A stretch of DNA of 64,000 bases from NCBI RefSeq assembly GCF_003977665.1, contig NZ_RYYV01000001.1, forward strand, positions 186,001-250,000. The letters are read 5' to 3'. The position numbers and the translations under genes were made by a program. Below are positions 46,688-56,788 of this stretch, piece by piece. The DNA is from Dyella choica. Its GTDB lineage: Bacteria; Pseudomonadota; Gammaproteobacteria; Xanthomonadales; Rhodanobacteraceae. Below the pieces are notes generated by a model. It saw nothing but the letters and a program-made list of their open reading frames with translations. It ran no database searches and had not been told where the DNA came from. The first letter of the stretch is position 1. Each line of letters opens with the position of its first letter.

Positions 46688-46806
46688 GAATAGCTCCGGC
46701 AGGAGGACATCGCATCATGACGGATTGACGCAATGCCCGCATGCTTCACAGGTCATGATCCCTGTCGCTGGTCGCCACGAAACTCTCTGCGGTAAACGGA
46801 GGGCGC

Positions 46807-46909
46807 AACCTGGGCGCCTCAAGCCGAATACTTCCGCTGCGATGCCGGCCTCGAACAGGCTGAGGCCACGGTAAGCGATCGACACCACTCGGGGCAGCAC
46901 GGCAGGCAT
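46807..46909 (-). pseudogene. Remnant of a GlxA/FtrA-type AraC regulator N-terminus
   Basis: On the minus strand an open frame starting at 46909 reads MPAVLPRVVSIAYRGLSLFE then AGIAAEVFGLRRP, which looks like the first ~35 residues of the DJ-1/PfpI domain of GlxA-type regulators (V-x-YDGL-x-FE-GIA-EVFGLPRP). After about residue 35 the similarity ends and the frame stops at 46715. No remaining AraC domain is present, so it is probably a decayed fragment left by a deletion. The downstream tail has no visible family similarity. Confidence 0.6.
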
Positions 46910-47003
46910 GGCGGCTTCCTACCGCTATGGGGCGAATTCGTCAATGGGATTCCTTCCGCGCGCTGCGTAAAGTAGCTGCATCGAAGCCTCTTGGAGCTCT
47001 GCC

Positions 47004-47585
47004 GTGCTCCCCAAGCTTGCATCGATCGGCGTGCTCCTTCTGGCCTGGGCCATGGCCGACTCCCGCCCCATGAGCAGCATGAGTTCCAGCATGATCGAAG
47101 CCTTGCGCGCCGAAGGTCCCCACGCCTCGCTAGGAGCTCAGGCCAGCGTGTTCGGTCGACTGGTCGGCACCTGGGACCTCACCTGCGAGCGGCATGCCTC
47201 CGACGGCGCGCACACGAACTCGCGCGGCATTTGGTCTTTCGGGTGGGTCATCGATGGCCGGATCTTGCAGGACGTCATCGACTTCTTTGCGGCCGGGCAA
47301 TCGGCCGAGCGCGATGGCGGCACCACGCTGCGGTTTTACGACACGCAGACCCGGCAATGGCGTGTCTATTTCTTCGCGCCTGCGCGCAACGCCGTCATCG
47401 CGCTTGCCGGCGGCGCCGAGGGTAACCGGATCGTTCTGCGTGGGAATGATGTGGATGGATCGCTACTGCGCTGGTCCTTCAACGACATCAAGCCGGATTC
47501 GCTCTACTGGAAGGGCGAAATCTCGCACGATGGCGGCAAATCCTGGCGAATTGAACAGGAGATGCACCTGACCAGGCATCGGTAG
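47004..47585 (+). CDS. Secreted protein of unknown function with lipocalin-like beta fold
   Basis: The 193-aa protein begins MLPKLASIGVLLLAWAMADS, a signal-like N-terminus, using a GTG start with GGAG 7 nt upstream. The mature part has FGRLVGTWDLTCERHASDGA, GIWSFGWVIDGRILQDVIDF and WSFNDIKPDSLYWKGEIS. The GTW motif plus repeated Trp-rich strands suggest a calycin-like barrel of the type found in small binding or DUF1579-like proteins. I do not recognise a specific family. It is on the plus strand, opposite its neighbours, and its stop is merged with a family B repeat. Confidence 0.65.
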   Translation: MLPKLASIGVLLLAWAMADSRPMSSMSSSMIEALRAEGPHASLGAQASVFGRLVGTWDLTCERHASDGAHTNSRGIWSFGWVIDGRILQDVIDFFAAGQSAERDGGTTLRFYDTQTRQWRVYFFAPARNAVIALAGGAEGNRIVLRGNDVDGSLLRWSFNDIKPDSLYWKGEISHDGGKSWRIEQEMHLTRHR

Positions 47586-47674
47586 GCTGGGATCACAATC
47601 GTAGGCTGGGTTGAAAAACCCAGCATGGCCATGCGTGTAACCCACGCGATGCTGGGATTGTCATCCCAGCCTAC
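47582..47674. repeat. Nested GTAG-type REP elements, family B
   Basis: Starting at 47582, GTAGGCTGGGATCACAATC is interrupted at 47601 by a second full left element GTAGGCTGGGTTGAAAAACC-CAGC (47601-47624), and the region ends in the inverted GCTGGGATTGTCATCCCAGC-CTAC (47651-47674). The first 4 nt overlap the stop of the upstream gene and the end lies 4 nt from jetD. It looks like one REP inserted into, or duplicated within, another. Confidence 0.88.
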
Positions 47675-47678
47675 ACCG

Positions 47679-48842
47679 TCACGGGGCGAGGTTACTCACT
47701 ATGCGTCGCCAGGCAAAATCCCACGCAATGCGCTCCTGCTCCAGGCGCACTTGCTTGTACTCGCCTTCGCGCAAGGCGCGATACAAGTCCTGCTCTGCGT
47801 CGGTGAGATGCGAAAACGCTGTTGCCGCATGCGGTTTCTCTTCCCTGCCCCACAACTGCTTGAATTCCAGCAGTGTCGTTTCATCCATCAGCAACGACTG
47901 CGCCTGCGGCAAATGCATGCGCAATCGGCTCAGTATCGCGAAACCGTGCGTATCGATATCGCCCCAGTAAAACACCGGCAAAGATGCCACCCACGGCAAG
48001 CGCGCCAATGCATCCACCGCATAGCCACGCTGCATGAACACCAGCGTGCCGGGCAGCTCTTCGCAGGCAAGACCGGTGACGAGATTTTCCACGATCAGCA
48101 CCTGCCGCACAGGCAAGGCCAGCTCGACCAACTCATCAACCGGCGCTTCGATGTCAGCCAGGCCGGCCAACGCTGCACGCAACGCCGGATCGAGCAAGCG
48201 CATGCGCAAGCGGTCAGGCGCGGCACGCAAGCCCGTCACCGAGTGAAAATCGCCGGACGATCCACAGCCCTGCAACGCACCTACCCACGCCGACACCACC
48301 CCGCGACGCGATTCGATCCACTTGCTGTCGATGCCGGAAATCCCGAGCTGCCGCGGATATAGACCCGATGCCGGATGCTGCCACAGCCACTCGACTACGC
48401 GACACAGACACCCGAAATCAGTGTCGTCCAGATCGGCCAGCAGGTCGAAATGGCGCGACAATTCCGCTTGCCAAGCGGCATCGGCCTGCCACGCCGCCAG
48501 GGCATCGAAACGTTGCTTCGCCACGGACCAGCGTGCCAGCTGCCTCAATGTCCCAGCTACGGCTGCCGGCGCAGCAAACTGCCAGGCGCAAGGGATCCGC
48601 TGCTCGCCCACGCGCGACCAGGTACGCGCTTCATAGCGCACCACCCCCTCTCCGCCGCGCGATACGTCCCGCCATTGCGCAAGCCAGCCATCGAAATGCG
48701 CCCAGTCCGCCAGCACCTTCGCTTCGGTAGGCGGGTCAATGCTCAAGGCCAGCGGCCATTCGCCCTGTCCCTGCAGCCAATGGCGCCGCTGGTTGTGCCA
48801 GCGTGACAACAGACGCCTTCGCAGCTCCTCAGGCGTCCGCAT
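47679..48842 (-). CDS. jetD: JetD, Wadjet nuclease (DUF3322/DUF2220 Toprim)
   Basis: The 387-aa protein has the N-terminal DUF3322 region (WPLALSIDPPTEAKVLADW) and a C-terminal DUF2220 Toprim-like domain with VLIVENLVTGLACEELP (Glu252) and VFYWGDIDTHGFAIL (Asp295, Asp297), the metal-binding residues of topoisomerase VI-like nucleases. In Wadjet type I, JetD cuts plasmid DNA after JetABC loop extrusion. The Toprim residues are all present, so the nuclease appears intact. It overlaps jetC by 14 nt and is the last gene of the operon. Confidence 0.93.
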   Translation of the reverse strand: MRTPEELRRRLLSRWHNQRRHWLQGQGEWPLALSIDPPTEAKVLADWAHFDGWLAQWRDVSRGGEGVVRYEARTWSRVGEQRIPCAWQFAAPAAVAGTLRQLARWSVAKQRFDALAAWQADAAWQAELSRHFDLLADLDDTDFGCLCRVVEWLWQHPASGLYPRQLGISGIDSKWIESRRGVVSAWVGALQGCGSSGDFHSVTGLRAAPDRLRMRLLDPALRAALAGLADIEAPVDELVELALPVRQVLIVENLVTGLACEELPGTLVFMQRGYAVDALARLPWVASLPVFYWGDIDTHGFAILSRLRMHLPQAQSLLMDETTLLEFKQLWGREEKPHAATAFSHLTDAEQDLYRALREGEYKQVRLEQERIAWDFAWRRIVSNLAP

Positions 48843-51800
48843 CGGCCTGGCGCACCTTCTCGGGCAAGGCCAACCGCTTGTTGCCTTCGTCGTATTCGAT
48901 CAGCAGCACGCCTGAATCGTGACGGCCGGTAATATCGACGAAGCACGCGCCACCGATGAATGGCTCCAGCGTCATCACCGACTTCAGCGGCGTGGCCACC
49001 ACCATCTGGAAGCCGAAGTTCTCGAAGATGTTCATCGCCAGCGCGGTGAATTCGTTGTCGGCCTTGTCGAAGGCTTCGTCGAGCACCACCGGCGCATAAC
49101 GCGGCAAATGTCCGTCATCACCGCCGAGCTGGTAGCGCAACGCTGCGGCAAGACAGGTCGTAGCCAGCTTCTGGCGCTGGCCGCCGGATTTGCCAGCACC
49201 GCTGCGGTACACCTCTACCGTAGCCTGCGTGTTGGCATCCTTCTCCACGCCCACGAATTCCACATGCTGGCGCACGTCCAGCACCTGTTCACGCCAGCGC
49301 TTGTGTTCGGCATCGTCGGCAGCCAGCTTGGCCACCACCTGGCGCAACACGGCGAACTGCGCCTCGGCGCGATCGCGATCCTCGGTCTGGTGGTGGGAAA
49401 GCACCTCGCGCAATTGCAGCTGGAAGTCGCGCACTTCCGGCAAATTGCGGTCGGTGAGGTCGATCTGCAGCAGGGTGCCGCGGTTGAACGGCACGCGCTC
49501 CAGGCTTTCGTTCACCTCCTCCATGCGCTGGCCGATCGACTTGCGCGCCTCGGTCATGTGTTTCTGCAGCACCAGCAGGTTCTGCTTGCTCTGGCTTTGC
49601 AGCAGTTCGAAGAAACGCGCCTCATGCTTGGGTAGGCCGTCCAGTTCCAGCCGGCGCAGACGAGAGAGAAAACCTTCCGCCGAATCCATGTTGGGCGTGA
49701 AGTCGGCGCTGTCCTGTGGCCACTTGCGGCAGAAGCTGCGGAAGCATTCTTCGGCCGTTTGCACCAAGGCATTGTCCTTCTGCGCCTGCTCGGCCAAGGC
49801 CACGTTCAAGCCGTCCTTGACTTGGTTGATCTGGCGTTCGAGATTGTCCAGCAGCAACGGCGGATGCTGCGGCAAACGCATCGCCAGCGCATTGGCCTGC
49901 ACAGGCGACAGCGTCATCGCGTGGGCCAGCGGCAGGCAGGATTCACGTTGCCGGGTTACGCCGTTGCGCTCTTTTTCCAGCGAGAGGCGCTCGGCGGAAG
50001 CGTCTTCCAGGTTGCCGGCCGCACGCCCTCGCGCAATGCGTTCGGTATCGAGCTGGCGCATGATCTCCTGCAGCGTGGCATCGCCCGCGCGCAATTGCTG
50101 CAGCTGGGTTTCGATATCGCCCAGGCGGCGCAGCTTGGGCGCCACGTCGATCTCTTCCCATTCCAGGTTGGCGAGCTGCGAAGCGGCCAGGCGGCGGTCA
50201 CCGTCTGTATCGCGCTCGGCCTTCAACTGGTCCAGCTCGGCGGCGGCTTGCGCGATCGCCTGGGCCAGCTCCTGCCCTTCGCGCTCGAACACGGCGAGCT
50301 TGTCGCGGTTGTCGAAGCCGAGCACCCAATTGCGGCGGTCATCCACCGCACGGCGATCATCCTTTTCATGCCGGTCGCCGCCATGCTTCACCAGGCCCTC
50401 GCGGGTGATGGCACGATCGGCATTACGCAAGGCAGCCGGCGTATCCACGCAAGCGTAGTCGAAGCGCCGCGTCAGCTCGTTGGTGAGCCAATCGCGATGT
50501 GCATGATCGCGAACCTCCAGCCGATGCACCAGCGAGCGCGACTCCGGCGTACGGTTACCAAGCCCATCGGCGCGCCCTACGCGGTAATACACCAGCTTGC
50601 CGCCCAAGTGAGTCTTGTTGACCCAGCTGGAAACCTCCGCATAGTGGCGCTCGTCCACCAGCAGCGACAAGGCGAAACCGTGCAGCACGCGCTCGACGGC
50701 CCCTCGCCATGCGGCGTGTTCGGCTTTCACCTGCAACAGCTCGCCCACGAAGGGCAGCGTGTTCTCCGACCAGCCCAGCTCGCTGCACAGGCGTGCACGC
50801 ATGGCCTGGACCGGCGCGGGTATATTGGATGGATTGCGTTTCAGTGCCTCGATCTCGGCGCGCACGCCGCCAAAGCGCTGGCTGGCCAGGTCGCGTTCGC
50901 GCTTGAGCGCATCCATGCGTTCTTCCAGGCCGGCCGCACGATCGCGCGCGCCGTCCAGCAGTTCGCGCGAACGCCCTACCAGCTCGGCAAAACCTTGCGC
51001 AGTGGACGGCACAGTCCAGTCGAGCGCCTTGCAGGCGCGCTCAGCCTTGTCACGGCGCTTCATGCGCTCGTCGCGTTCGCGTGCGACCTGCTCATGCTCG
51101 CGTTCGAGCTGGTCGATCAGGTCGCCACCCTGCTCGCGGCGCTGGCGTTCCAGATCGAGCAGGCGGCGGTCGTGGTTTTCCACGATTTGCCGGCGTTGCG
51201 CGATTTCGCCTTCCAGCGCCACGTCGCGCACGTTCAGTTCGGCCAGCTTTTCGTCCAGCAGCACGAGGCGGCGTTGCTCGCGCCAGGTATCCACGCAAAG
51301 ATGCAGTTCACGCAGGGTGCTGGTTTCGCGTCGCAGCGTGATGAGGTCTTCGTGCGCGATACGCGCTGGCACCAGCGTATCGACCTGCTCGCGTGCAATC
51401 ACCACCGCCTTGTGGGCGGCATCCAGCTCACCGAAGTCTGTCACCAACCGGCTCGCTGCACCGAAAGTTTCCGGCTCATCCAGCATGAAGCCGCGCAGGA
51501 ACGAATTCAGATCGCCCAGGTTCTTGGCCGACTGCGTCTTGTGCAGCAGCTTCAGCGCCATTTCGTTCTGGATGCCGAGCAAACGGCGAAAGCGTTCGGC
51601 GTAGCCGGTGAAGGTATCGAAGTGGTGCACGTCTTCGCCGAGGCGCGTCTTGAGCTTGCGCAGGTCCAGATCGAAGCCCTTGAGCTCGCTGGCCACGTCG
51701 AAGGCGCGCTCGCACACCATGTAGTGCTTCTTCACGTCCGCCGCGGTGGAACCGTTGCCGGCGACCCAGAACAGGCGAATCAGGCTGACCGTTTCCCCCA

Positions 51801-52233
51801 CCGCATTGCGGTATTCCAGCACCAACGCAGACCAGGTGCTGCCTTTGCGCAGGTACTGCGTGGCGATTTCACCGGATTCGCCATCGTGCTGATCCGCCCA
51901 CGCACCGCGTACGTACGAAACCAGGCTGCGATCGCGGCCGCTGCGTTCGGCCTCGCGCGCGGCGGCGTTGAAGTCCACCAGGTTCGGTGGCACCAGCAAG
52001 GCCGACATGGCGTCGAGCAAAGTGGATTTGCCCGAGCCGGAACGGCCCACGAACAGAAAGCCGCGCTCGGCGATCGGCACCTCGACCAGGCCGCTGAAGG
52101 TGCCCCAGTTGAACACCTGCAGGCGCCGCATGCGGAACTGCTCGTCGCGCGGGTCGGGCAAGTCGGAGAGGAACAGCGTGGGTGTCGTGTCGCGCTTGGG
52201 TTGCTTGCGCGTGGTCTTGGCCTTAGCGTTCAT
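48829..52233 (-). CDS. jetC: JetC, SMC-like ATPase of Wadjet
   Basis: The 1134-aa protein has an SMC/MukB-type layout: Walker [10 protein letters not shown] at residues 63-71, two long coiled-coil regions around a hinge with [17 protein letters not shown], and a C-terminal ABC head with the signature KSGGQRQKL (1015-1023) and Walker B VVLDEAFD (about 1035-1054). JetC dimers bind JetA (kleisin) and JetB (KITE) and extrude DNA loops to detect small circular plasmids. Overlaps jetB by 11 nt. The opposite strand is open over most of its length, a GC-skew artefact. Confidence 0.94.
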
Positions 52234-52897
52234 CCGCTGCCTCCTCCATGGCTTCGTCCGCCTCGCGCAGCTGGCGGTAGATCTGCGCCAGGTTCTGCAC
52301 GTCCTCAGCCGAGAACAGCAGCTTCAGCGCGGGCGACACTTCGTAGCGATCTTCGCTGCCGCGCAGCTTTTCCAGCACGTGGTTGTCCTTCATCTTGGCG
52401 ATGGAGCCAGCAACGCGCCTGTTGAAGCCGGCACGGTCGGTGGAAAGATTCTTTTCGTACACCGACAAGGCATCCAGCAGCACGCTTTCCTCCACCACCG
52501 CGCGACGCCCTTGCGCATCGGCCTCGGCCAGCTGCTGGCGCAGGTGCAGCAGCAGCACCGAATCGATGAAGGTGAGCGGCGAGGAACGCAGCAGCACCGG
52601 CGTTTCCAGCTCTCCGGTGTCGGCCTGGCGCGTGAAGGCCACGCCGCCTTCCCGGTCGAGCACCAGTTCCAGGAACAGGTCGTTCAGATGCGAACGCAGC
52701 TGCGCTTCGTAGCGCAATACGGCCGGCCACAGTTGATGGTGCCGCCCTTGGTCGATACTGGGCCCGCTCAGCAGCTGGCACAGCGCGCGGCGCGCATCCA
52801 GCGGCAAACTGCCGGAGTCGCCTTCGAACAGGGCGCCATCGCGTGAAGGCTTGGGCGCAGGAGCGATGGAAAGTGTTTCGTCTTCAAGCAAATTCAT
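52223..52897 (-). CDS. jetB: JetB, KITE-like subunit of Wadjet (DUF4194)
   Basis: The 224-aa protein fits the DUF4194 family: winged-helix-like with [42 protein letters not shown] and [23 protein letters not shown]. In Wadjet it plays the part of MukE/KITE that bridges JetA and JetC. It overlaps jetA by 14 nt and jetC by 11 nt. Its identity is firm by size and position between jetA and jetC. Confidence 0.92.
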
Positions 52898-54350
52898 TGC
52901 GTTTCTCTTTCAGAAACCACACCAGCGGAATGCGCGCCTGGCGCCAGTGGCCGTCGCCGCCCTTCCAGCGCACGGCTTCCTGTTCGTCGCCGATCACGCC
53001 ATGGCGCGTGGCCAGCGAGAGATAGCCCACCACGCTGCCCAACCCCTGCTCGGCCGGCTTGCGTTCCAGTACCTGGGCAATGGAAAGCTGATCGTGCTCG
53101 GCAAGCAGCTCGTGCAGGTCGCGGCGCAGGCTGCGGAAATCGATTTCCGATTGCGACACCAGCTCGCTCACGCTGTCCAGCGAAATAGCCGCGCCTTCGC
53201 TGCGCACGATGCTGCCGTCCACCTGGGCGTTGCGCGGATCATGTAGCCGCCACTGCGAGAGCGAACGCAGGCGGCTGGTGGTGAGCTGCAGCGTGTACGG
53301 AGTGCGCTGGTGCGCGCTGACTGAGTCGCGCAATTGGAGCGCTTCGGCTTGCGCCTGTTTCAGCAATTGGTTCAAGCGGCGCTGCTCCAGGTAGCCGCGG
53401 CTCTGCACAAAGCCGCGCAGGCTGCGTGCGAACTGTTGCAGCACGTCGTGCACGTGACCACCGCGCTCCATCATCACACCGGTGAAGCCGCGCAGGAACT
53501 GGCGTTCGTGCCGTTGCAGTTTCTTGGTGAAGTTGCGCGACAGCACGTTTTCCAACGCCGCATCCAGCTGAGCGCTTTGCTCCATGTCGTTGAGCAGGCT
53601 CCAGAAGGCATGGAAGCTGCGGCCAGCTTCGCTCTCGGCGATGACGTCCACGCCTTCGAACAGGCGATCGAGCACCTCGCCGCGCTCGCCTTCGTCATCG
53701 ATGATACGCTCGCGGAATTCGCGGTTCAGGCGCTCGAAGTCATCGCGCACGCGGCGAAAGTCTTCGGCCAGCTCGTCGGCAAGCTGAATCACCTCACGTG
53801 TCCGCTCCAAGGCGCGCTTGCCGTCCAGCGCGGCGACCTTGCCGGTGCCGATCCGAGCGATCTCGGCATCCAGCCGATCGCGTTCGGCGTACAGGGCCTG
53901 CAGGCGTGCGGTCGGATCGGTCTCGGTCTGCTCGGCCAGACGGACGAGCTGCTGGATCACCAGCGACAGGCGGCTCTCGGTAGCGACGTTGCGCGGCGTA
54001 TCCAGTGTGCTTACGAAACGGATCGCCTGCGCGGCCAGGGCTGAGAGTTCGTATTCCTCTTCGCTCGCGCCCTCGGGCAGGCGTCGCTCCAAAAAGCCTT
54101 TGGCCAGCCAGTCGGCGATGTAAGCCTGGGCAGTACGCGGCAATTCGCGCGGCAAATCGGATGCATTGATGGCATCGAGCTGGTGCTGCAAGCGCTCGAA
54201 CAGGACGGAGGCGCCGAGCTTGCGCTCGCCATCCATCAACAAGGTTTGCAGCAGGCCAATGATTTCCGGCGCGTGATCGGCGGCAAGCAGGCGCCAGAGC
54301 GGCTCATCGCGCAGGCGTCGGTAGGTGGCGATACGGGCCTGGAGTTTCAT
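52884..54350 (-). CDS. jetA: JetA, kleisin-like subunit of Wadjet (DUF3375)
   Basis: The 488-aa protein matches DUF3375: helical N-terminus with [21 protein letters not shown], a long helical coiled middle (residues 130-240), and a C-terminal winged region ending [16 protein letters not shown]. JetA is the MukF-like kleisin that links the JetC heads. It is the first Wadjet gene and starts only 9 nt after the obgE stop, so it may be transcribed with obgE. No dedicated promoter is evident in that gap. Confidence 0.93.
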
Positions 54351-54359
54351 CGCTTAAGC

Positions 54360-55509
<1,150 letters not shown>

Positions 55510-55545
55510 GCCGAGGCAGAGCCGGCCAGGACCCGGATAAGACTG

Positions 55546-55577
55546 ATAAAACAAAAGCCCCGCCGGGGCGGGGCCTT
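55546..55577 (-). terminator. Rho-independent terminator of rplU-rpmA
   Basis: On the minus strand, GGCCCCGCC-CCGG-CGGGGC (8-bp stem, 55557-55574) is followed by TTTTGTTTT. It lies 23 nt after the rpmA stop and would separate the ribosomal genes from obgE unless read through. Confidence 0.85.
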
Positions 55578-55599
55578 CGTTGCAGTGCAAAGGCTTCGA

Positions 55600-55857
55600 T
55601 CAGGCCTTGACTACATTGACGAACTTGCGGTTGTTCTCGCCGCGGGTCTTGAACTCGACCACGCCGTCAACCAGCGCGTAGAGAGTGTGGTCACGGCCCA
55701 GGCCCACGCCGGTGCCGGCATGAAACTTGGTGCCGCGCTGGCGGACGATGATGTTGCCGGCCTCGATGGCCTGGCCACCGTAAATCTTCACGCCGAGGTA
55801 TTTCGGGTTCGAATCGCGACCGTTGCGGGATGAACCTACGCCTTTCTTATGTGCCAT
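55600..55857 (-). CDS. rpmA: 50S ribosomal protein L27
   Basis: The 85-aa protein begins [20 protein letters not shown], the conserved L27 N-terminus that reaches the peptidyl transferase centre, and includes [27 protein letters not shown]. It follows rplU by 24 nt. Confidence 0.97.
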
Positions 55858-55881
55858 GACTGATTACTCCAGATTGGCGGA

Positions 55882-56196
55882 TCAGGCGTTGATGCCCGTG
55901 ATCTCGACTTCGGTAAAATGCTGACGATGTCCCTGCTGGCGCTTGTAATGCTTGCGGCGGCGGAACTTGACGATGCGGACCTTGTCGGCGCGGCCATGCT
56001 TGCGCACGGTGGCGGTGACGGTGGCGCCGGCCACGGTCGGAGCGCCGACGGTGATGGTCTCACCGGCGCCGACCAACAGCACCTGGTCGAACTTCACGCT
56101 GGCGCCTTCTTCGGCGCTCAGAAGCTCCACGCGCAGGACATCGCCCTGCTGGACGCGGTATTGCTTGCCGCCGGTCTTGATGACTGCATAACTCAT
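55882..56196 (-). CDS. rplU: 50S ribosomal protein L21
   Basis: The 104-aa protein begins [19 protein letters not shown] and ends [25 protein letters not shown], the L21 pattern. It is the first gene of the rplU-rpmA unit, with a clear promoter upstream. Confidence 0.97.
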
Positions 56197-56263
56197 GGGA
56201 TTGGCCCTTGTGTCGTTATTCTCTTGGGTTCGATGCAGCCCTTACAGGCGCACCGAACTGGGG

Positions 56264-56293
56264 ATTATAGCGATGCGGGCGTTGACTGGTCAA
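56264..56293 (-). promoter_or_regulatory. Sigma-70-type promoter of rplU-rpmA
   Basis: On the minus strand, TTGACC (56288-56293) and a perfect TATAAT (56264-56269) are separated by 18 nt. Transcription would start about 60 nt before rplU. The -35 sits next to the stop of the DUF2059 gene (56294). Confidence 0.8.
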
Positions 56294-56788
56294 TCACTGA
56301 CCAGCCGGGTCCTTGCCGCCGCCGGTCGCCGGGCAGCGCCCGTCCGCCCCCAGTTTCCCTTGCTTCTGCAGCTCGGCAAACATGTCCGCGGTGCGCTGAC
56401 GGCTCCATTGCTGGCCGCTCTGGGCCGCCTCGGCCAGGGTGGCCGGCATCTGGGCAACCAGCTTCTGTCCCAACGGAGATTTATAGAATTTGATCAGGCC
56501 CGCCACTTCATCGGCGCTGAAATGGTGCTGGTAGGCCGGGATCATCGCCGTAACCAGCTGTTCGGTCCCGGCCTTGTCGATGTAGCCCTTCCAGTAGTCG
56601 ACCGGCACGCACGGGAGCTGCTGGCCCATCATCTCGGCCATCTGGCCGTTCATGGCGGCGAACTGGCCGGACACGTTCATGACCTGCATCAGTTCCCGGA
56701 CCTGCGCCTCGCTAGGCTGCGACGCCAGGGCCGGGCCAGACGCCAGCGCTGCACATGCCCCCAGGATCATCCACCGCTTGCCCTTCAT
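56294..56788 (-). CDS. DUF2059 secreted protein
   Basis: The 164-aa product has a signal peptide (MKGKRWMILGACAALASGPA) and a DUF2059 domain with VRELMQVMNVSGQFAAMNGQ, VTAMIPAYQHHFSADEVAGLIKFYKSPLGQKLV. These are periplasmic helical proteins of unknown role. A GGAGG site 6 nt upstream supports the start at 56788. It is divergent from uvrA with a 26-bp palindrome between them. Confidence 0.83.
   Translation of the reverse strand: MKGKRWMILGACAALASGPALASQPSEAQVRELMQVMNVSGQFAAMNGQMAEMMGQQLPCVPVDYWKGYIDKAGTEQLVTAMIPAYQHHFSADEVAGLIKFYKSPLGQKLVAQMPATLAEAAQSGQQWSRQRTADMFAELQKQGKLGADGRCPATGGGKDPAGQ

Follow-up and report, generated by a model that had tools for sequence, protein, structure and literature searches.

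A complete type I Wadjet operon behind obgE in Dyella choica and the frequent absence of JetD among its relatives

The stretch of Dyella choica DNA analyzed here, called the window in the following (64,000 nucleotides (nt) of contig NZ_RYYV01000001.1, positions 186,001 to 250,000), carries a complete and intact type I Wadjet system, jetABCD, directly behind obgE. By itself, this operon is an ordinary member of a known system. The unusual part lies in the surrounding clade, where JetD is often missing while JetABC is kept. Since the JetABC motor appears to be kept under strong selection although JetD is often absent, JetABC in this clade most likely also has a job independent of the nuclease, with chromosome organization as the best guess, and the window would represent a form of Wadjet I that has retained JetD. 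This reading is considered probable, with moderate confidence.

The jet operon of the window

The four genes are located on the minus strand and overlap successively by 14 nt (jetA/jetB), 11 nt (jetB/jetC) and 14 nt (jetC/jetD). The open reading frame (ORF) of jetA (52884..54350) encodes a kleisin-like subunit of 488 amino acids (aa) with the family DUF3375 (PF11855, 526.5 bits), that of jetB (52223..52897) a MukE-like protein of 224 aa with DUF4194 (PF13835, 157.7 bits), that of jetC (48829..52233) an ATPase of 1134 aa resembling the structural maintenance of chromosomes (SMC) proteins (PF13555 AAA_29 and PF13558 SbcC_Walker_B), and that of jetD (47679..48842) a Toprim-type nuclease of 387 aa with DUF3322 and JetD_C (PF11795 and PF09983). 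All Pfam matches exceed the family cut-offs, and the best PADLOC match of each protein is the type I model (PDLC00460 JetA1, 652.9 bits; PDLC00501 JetB1, 338.1 bits; PDLC00518 JetC1, 1409.5 bits; PDLC00530 JetD1, 415.3 bits), while a comparison of the four proteins with NCBIfam gave no match. The initial annotation, made from the letters of the window, had described four intact, overlapping genes behind obgE, and the ORFs, the Pfam families DUF3375, DUF4194, DUF3322 and JetD_C and the PADLOC models bear this out.

JetC contains the Walker A motif GRSGSGKST at residues 63-71, KSGGQ at 1015-1019 and Walker B at 1048-1059, all of them intact, and the acidic Toprim residues E252, D295 and D297 of JetD are present and aligned with those of MksG (8b7f) and JetD (7til); these sites, too, had been named beforehand and were found where they had been placed. 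Solved relatives were recognized by sequence for JetC (8dk2/8as8), JetA (8dk1/8q72) and JetD (7til, 8q72 and MksG 8b7f), and the search of PDB sequences returned no solved relative for JetB. The genome of the strain (5.49 Mb) contains one DUF3322 and one JetD_C match. It also encodes ScpA and, in an ORF of 1171 aa, an SMC_N protein, so that JetABC would be a second SMC motor. By homology, the system of the window strain is expected to cut plasmids.

Occurrence of JetA and JetD in related genomes

JetD was called absent or present by matches to DUF3322 or JetD_C with an E-value of up to 0.001. The surveyed genomes, designated by G numbers, are draft assemblies with one genome per species, and their assignment to Stenotrophomonas or Xanthomonas rests on contigs shared with named loci, which are designated by L numbers.

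The majority of the loci surveyed by tblastn hold JetABC without JetD. In a set of 100 genomes including that of the window, JetA was matched in 29, comprising the own copy, 21 full-length close copies (at least 51% identity), six distant copies (32-34%) and a remnant in G002. JetD is adjacent to five of the 21 close copies and not to the other 16, counting among the latter G029, whose contig ends before the position of jetD; only in one of these 16 genomes, G053, was a JetD match found elsewhere, a weak one on another contig. All six distant copies have JetD on the same contig, and JetD_C was matched in 18 of the 100 relatives. A set of 247 Xanthomonadaceae genomes, from whose JetA count two weak matches (G275, G305) and a partial copy (G270) were left out, yielded 43 full-length close JetA copies (56-74% identity), 11 with JetD (in one case on another contig) and 32 without. 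Of the 15 distant copies in this set (27-34%), 14 have JetD on the same contig (about 17 kb away in G145), and the remaining one, without JetD, lies at a contig end.

By genus, JetA was found in 81 of 91 Stenotrophomonas genomes, with JetD at that locus in two and absent in 79; two further JetD matches adjoin second, more distant JetA copies. All 35 Xanthomonas genomes carry JetA, 12 of them with JetD at the locus and 23 without. Full-length JetA without stops is present in all 23 genomes lacking JetD, and the two broken jetA genes, in G270 (L155) and G430, both belong to the 12 and are still accompanied by JetD sequence. This carriage is unlike the 6% of bacteria for which Wadjet I is given in PMC11680222. 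In the genus of the window, JetD adjoins JetA in three of ten genomes (the window, G003 and G014), and among 16 loci linked to obgE it is present in four and absent in 12.

Some individual cases were recorded. In G270 jetA runs into the end of jetC, and in G430 JetA is matched in two pieces and DUF3322 only in part. In the Stenotrophomonas genome G363, JetA is split in two between separate contigs. A single internal stop interrupts several of the distant Wadjet copies of JetA (G216, G152, G179, G124, G215). DUF3322 without any JetA match occurs, besides weak matches, for example in G108, G309 and G335, and a short contig of G008, from the genus of the window, holds JetB-C-D belonging to a different and more distant Wadjet. 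Between jetA and jetB, L122 and L033 contain 3044 and 1129 extra bases, with both genes still open. L060, from a record titled Bacillus subtilis, shows a Stenotrophomonas-type jetABC locus, probably due to contamination or a wrong label. In L161 (G105) and L068, jetABC lies close to one end of a record as large as a chromosome, at distances of about 4 and 44 kb, and may thus be near the replication origin; in several other genomes this is not the case.

Sequence constraint on JetABC without JetD

All 72 JetC sequences without JetD have Walker A, KSGGQ and Walker B in intact form, a count that includes L101, whose contig ends inside jetC so that its JetD state is not readable. The ratio of nonsynonymous to synonymous substitutions (dN/dS) was determined pairwise as a simple NG86 count, in which dS is partly saturated. 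For five pairs of the Dyella group without JetD it amounts to 0.040-0.096 for JetA, 0.063-0.167 for JetB and 0.050-0.098 for JetC, with 0.046-0.063 for ObgE; for JetD itself, the three Dyella pairs possessing it gave 0.125-0.169. Values of 0.012-0.045 were obtained for the JetC core in nine Xanthomonas/Stenotrophomonas pairs that lack JetD, all of them bearing a C-terminal tail (see below). Judged by these sequences, JetABC without JetD is neither debris nor decaying, and the motor appears to be under strong purifying selection with or without JetD.

Probable loss and possible regain of JetD

A tree of JetA and JetC was calculated with FastTree for 101 loci after removal of six duplicates; loci with an early contig end were not included, and L101 was counted as lacking JetD. 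On this tree, the state of JetD changes at least seven times. All nine outer and six outgroup sequences carry JetD. In the tree of the 29 JetD sequences, those of Dyella group together (98/99), and so do those of Xanthomonas/Stenotrophomonas (97/99); the same groups occur in the JetC tree. Because the JetD tree broadly follows the JetC tree in this way, JetD was probably inherited with the operon and then lost repeatedly, with the direction of change read from the trees.

Alternatively, an early loss of JetD in the clade may have been followed by several regains through transfer, with the copy in the window as one of them. The seven changes of the shortest history compare with 14 losses that a loss-only history needs on the tree as drawn, JetD of L105 sits on a long branch inside a group otherwise lacking JetD, and the JetD and JetC trees disagree for L081 and Xanthomonas albilineans L044 and leave several forks open. 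Against this stand the two well-supported JetD groups and the presence of JetD in every outer and outgroup sequence, as well as the 14-nt overlap of jetC and jetD, which all four of the obgE-linked loci that have JetD retain. The regain history is regarded as unlikely, although some regain, for example in L105, may have taken place.

In the Xanthomonadaceae, operons with and without JetD also share their sites. The Xanthomonas- and Stenotrophomonas-named loci without JetD have folE upstream, and a 50-residue piece of this upstream gene matches GTP cyclohydrolase I. Nine distinct Xanthomonas/Stenotrophomonas loci with JetD have folE upstream in seven cases and a yfcA-like gene downstream in six, with at least one of both in each locus.

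The obgE site and transcription across the junction

The gene upstream of jetA, obgE (54360..55430, minus strand; 356 aa; TIGR02729, 475.8 bits), ends at 54360 and the ATG of jetA is at 54350, which leaves a gap of 9 nt (54351..54359, minus strand) and agrees with the distance given in the initial annotation. That annotation had regarded the placement behind obgE as the unusual part, a view that did not hold: of 16 genomes in the genus of the window, ten have an intact JetA, in every case behind obgE, and related Dyella-group loci share the site. Only a jetA remnant is left at obgE in G002 (the remnant locus of this genus being listed as L132), and G001, G008, G010, G011 and G013 lack JetA, with obgE followed after 80 to 82 nt by an asparaginase-family gene. 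The corresponding gene of the window (PF01112; 45635..46687, minus strand) marks the downstream edge of the site in these five relatives. In L042 and L059, two loci named Dyella, the 10 kb upstream of jetA contain no obgE, and in the Xanthomonadaceae relatives the jet genes lie behind folE, another housekeeping gene.

In the 16 obgE-linked loci from this and related genera, which were picked because obgE and jetA adjoin, both genes have the same direction and are separated by 8-223 nt. The gap is 8 nt in Dyella flagellata, 26-103 nt in eight loci and 169-223 nt in six, and these six longest gaps are, judged by eye, filled with palindromic repeats. The closest named JetA, 96% identical, is that of D. 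flagellata, where JetD is absent. The operon thus appears to have long been part of the chromosome and to have been inherited at the site behind obgE, and the tight junction of the window would be one state of this site.

The region 54200-56400 was scanned for simple sigma-70 promoters and for terminator-like structures. The single promoter-like site, at 56293-56264 ahead of rplU, compares with 0.2 expected by chance; none was detected in or just after obgE, as had been noted for the start of jetA. The only terminator-like match is located between rpmA and obgE and is within chance. Because of the 9-nt gap and because the scan revealed neither a promoter-like nor a terminator-like site between obgE and jetA, co-transcription of obgE and the jet genes is plausible. 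As the only promoter-like site precedes rplU, any such link would involve the entire rplU-rpmA-obgE run, and nothing was found that ties the system to the function of ObgE.

A basic C-terminal tail of JetC

In 23 sequences from loci with JetD, JetC continues for a median of 21 residues past the conserved head motif. Xanthomonas-named sequences without JetD continue for 164-326 residues, and six Stenotrophomonas sequences without JetD for 100-131. These tails are rich in Ala, Pro, Thr, Lys, Ser and Arg and have a net charge of mostly +6 to +33; long basic tails rich in Ala, Lys and Pro were seen without JetD in L062, L162, L161, L048, L052, L054, L057, L058 and L099. Most Stenotrophomonas sequences without JetD and all Dyella sequences measured lack such a tail.

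When a tail is defined by at least 90 residues and a net charge of at least 5, it is present in none of 29 loci with JetD and in 23 of 71 without, with four changes on the tree; nine sequences had no anchor for the measurement, of which seven were set to no tail, L133 is not in the tree and L101 was left out. The contrast depends on the cut-off, because two loci with JetD, L148 and L095, have tails of intermediate length (72 and 83 residues) whose net charge is low, and at 60 residues the measured counts become two of 23 with JetD and 27 of 70 without. The tree provides only five independent pairs for tail and JetD state, at most one of them differing in the tail, and a sign test has no power for this reason.

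The dN/dS of the tails is 0.35-0.77 in the nine pairs whose JetC core was given above. Their Lys content is 9.9%, compared with 2.5% in shuffled DNA, and a Pfam search with one such tail gave no match at E-values up to 1. In the window, jetD starts inside jetC, so that a longer JetC would collide with jetD; the absence of jetD frees the 3' end of jetC, and the tail may therefore be neutral. The Lys excess argues otherwise, and the loose sequence does not settle the matter. In composition only, the tail presumably resembles histone H1, and the search of open-licence literature listed no report of an H1-like JetC tail.

Neighboring sequences

Reading of the neighbors by hand together with tblastn showed that the jet genes are followed by asparaginase/CutC in some Dyella-group loci and by a yfcA-like gene in the Xanthomonadaceae. 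In four Dyella-group loci without the asparaginase, the next gene reads by eye like rpsT and is a candidate for it. For a replacement nuclease beside jetC, clustering of ORFs near the named loci was swamped by overlapping GC-rich frames and gave no usable candidate.

Just past jetD, the window contains a 193-aa ORF on the plus strand (47004-47585) for which neither Pfam nor NCBIfam gave a match and which tblastn did not recover from the other fetched loci. The minus strand at about 46800-46960, between jetD and the asparaginase gene, resembles by eye the beginning of a GlxA/FtrA-type regulator and may be a remnant. An inverted repeat of the kind TAGGCTGGGAT...ATCCCAGCCTA is located behind jetD at about 47590-47675, and the longer obgE-jetA gaps of the relatives hold palindromic repeats other than this one.

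Discussion

According to the mechanism known from the literature and transferred by homology, JetABC would be an SMC motor extruding loops of DNA, and small circular DNA would be cut by the nuclease JetD; PMC10586767 describes JetABC as sensing the shape and size of DNA and JetD as cutting circular DNA. The proposed nuclease-independent job would be a condensin-like organization of the chromosome, similar to that by MksBEF, alongside Smc-ScpAB, and the window strain would additionally use JetABC with JetD against plasmids.

The window shares the four families, the ATPase motifs and the Toprim residues with Wadjet type I (JetABCD; MksBEFG of Corynebacterium glutamicum, EptABCD), and differs by its position directly behind obgE and by a clade often lacking JetD. 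The JetD-less relatives follow the same logic as the MksBEF condensin of Pseudomonas aeruginosa, which has no nuclease in its operon; this holds for the relatives only, as jetD is present in the window. With DUF4194, the JetB proteins from the window and four JetD-less relatives reach 147-165 bits, far more than the 27-37 bits with MksE (36.5 bits for the window with PF21980, cut-off 27), which suggests that the nuclease was lost separately from P. aeruginosa MksBEF. Closest to the relatives is the JetD-less Wadjet I of Stenotrophomonas maltophilia, from the same clade and with the same gene missing; PMC11680222 reports Wadjet I in 82% of strains, mostly without jetD and with jetABC more than 95% conserved. 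The present data add the clade-wide setting of selection, fixed sites and probable repeated loss. In Xylella, most strains have jetABCD, and JetA and JetC are pseudogenes in some (PMC9148166). Among the open-licence papers searched, none was listed that describes JetABC lacking JetD as a core complex throughout Xanthomonas or Dyella.

Several observations weigh against a nuclease-independent job. JetABC is not essential, since in the genus of the window JetA is missing at obgE from five of the 16 genomes and reduced to a remnant in another, and since ten of 91 Stenotrophomonas genomes lack JetA. Whole-gene dN/dS is higher in eight Xanthomonas/Stenotrophomonas pairs without JetD (JetA 0.030-0.178, JetB 0.043-0.228, JetC 0.058-0.270), where the tails contribute to the JetC values in some pairs only; six pairs with JetD are similar (JetA 0.056-0.171, JetC 0.054-0.206, JetD 0.109-0.228). 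The yardstick of ObgE covers the Dyella group, low dN/dS indicates constraint and is silent on what is constrained, the sequences are related and their counts hence not independent, and FastTree issued long-branch warnings. Finally, sites conserved with JetD and relaxed without it number five in JetA, two in JetB and nine in JetC. The reverse pattern occurs at 17, six and 23 sites, and because more positions go this way, no clear freed interface for JetD emerges; as candidates for such a surface only scattered positions were obtained, JetA 404-405 and JetC 689-690 being the clearest.

If JetABC served plasmid defense only, the window would be an ordinary Wadjet I and the copies without JetD inactivated systems on their way out. 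The completeness of the window system fits this, as do the jetA remnant in L132 and the broken jetA genes of two Xanthomonas genomes, and in PMC11680222 the JetD-less form of S. maltophilia is termed probably inactive. Such decay is hard to reconcile with whole clades without JetD that keep the ATPase motifs and low dN/dS, and with the full-length JetA in every JetD-less Xanthomonas genome when the two broken cases still have JetD sequence, so that this explanation appears improbable. JetD-less JetABC could also still act in defense by extruding or silencing plasmid or phage DNA together with another nuclease in trans, for example RecBCD. The strong selection on JetABC would be expected in this case, and in S. 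maltophilia the JetD-less Wadjet I shares defense island 27, flanked by yfcA, with RecBCD (PMC11680222). The gene after jetC differs by lineage, however, with asparaginase in some of the Dyella group and the yfcA-like gene further downstream in Stenotrophomonas, and near-universal presence is atypical for defense; we consider defense in trans unlikely.

An additional job of JetABC in chromosome organization is thus preferred. In a more far-reaching and tentative version, which we think has a less than even chance of being correct, JetABC of the Xanthomonadales would be a resident second condensin that arose separately from P. aeruginosa MksBEF by repeated shedding of JetD; jetC of Xanthomonas and some Stenotrophomonas would then have grown an H1-like basic tail tying the motor to the nucleoid, and strains keeping JetD would use a single motor to maintain the chromosome and to cut plasmids.

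Since related species such as D. choica and D. flagellata differ in the presence of jetD at one fixed site, they form natural pairs that are directly comparable. If JetABC without JetD is named a Wadjet system or written off as inactive, a gene cluster found almost universally in two genera may be given the wrong label.
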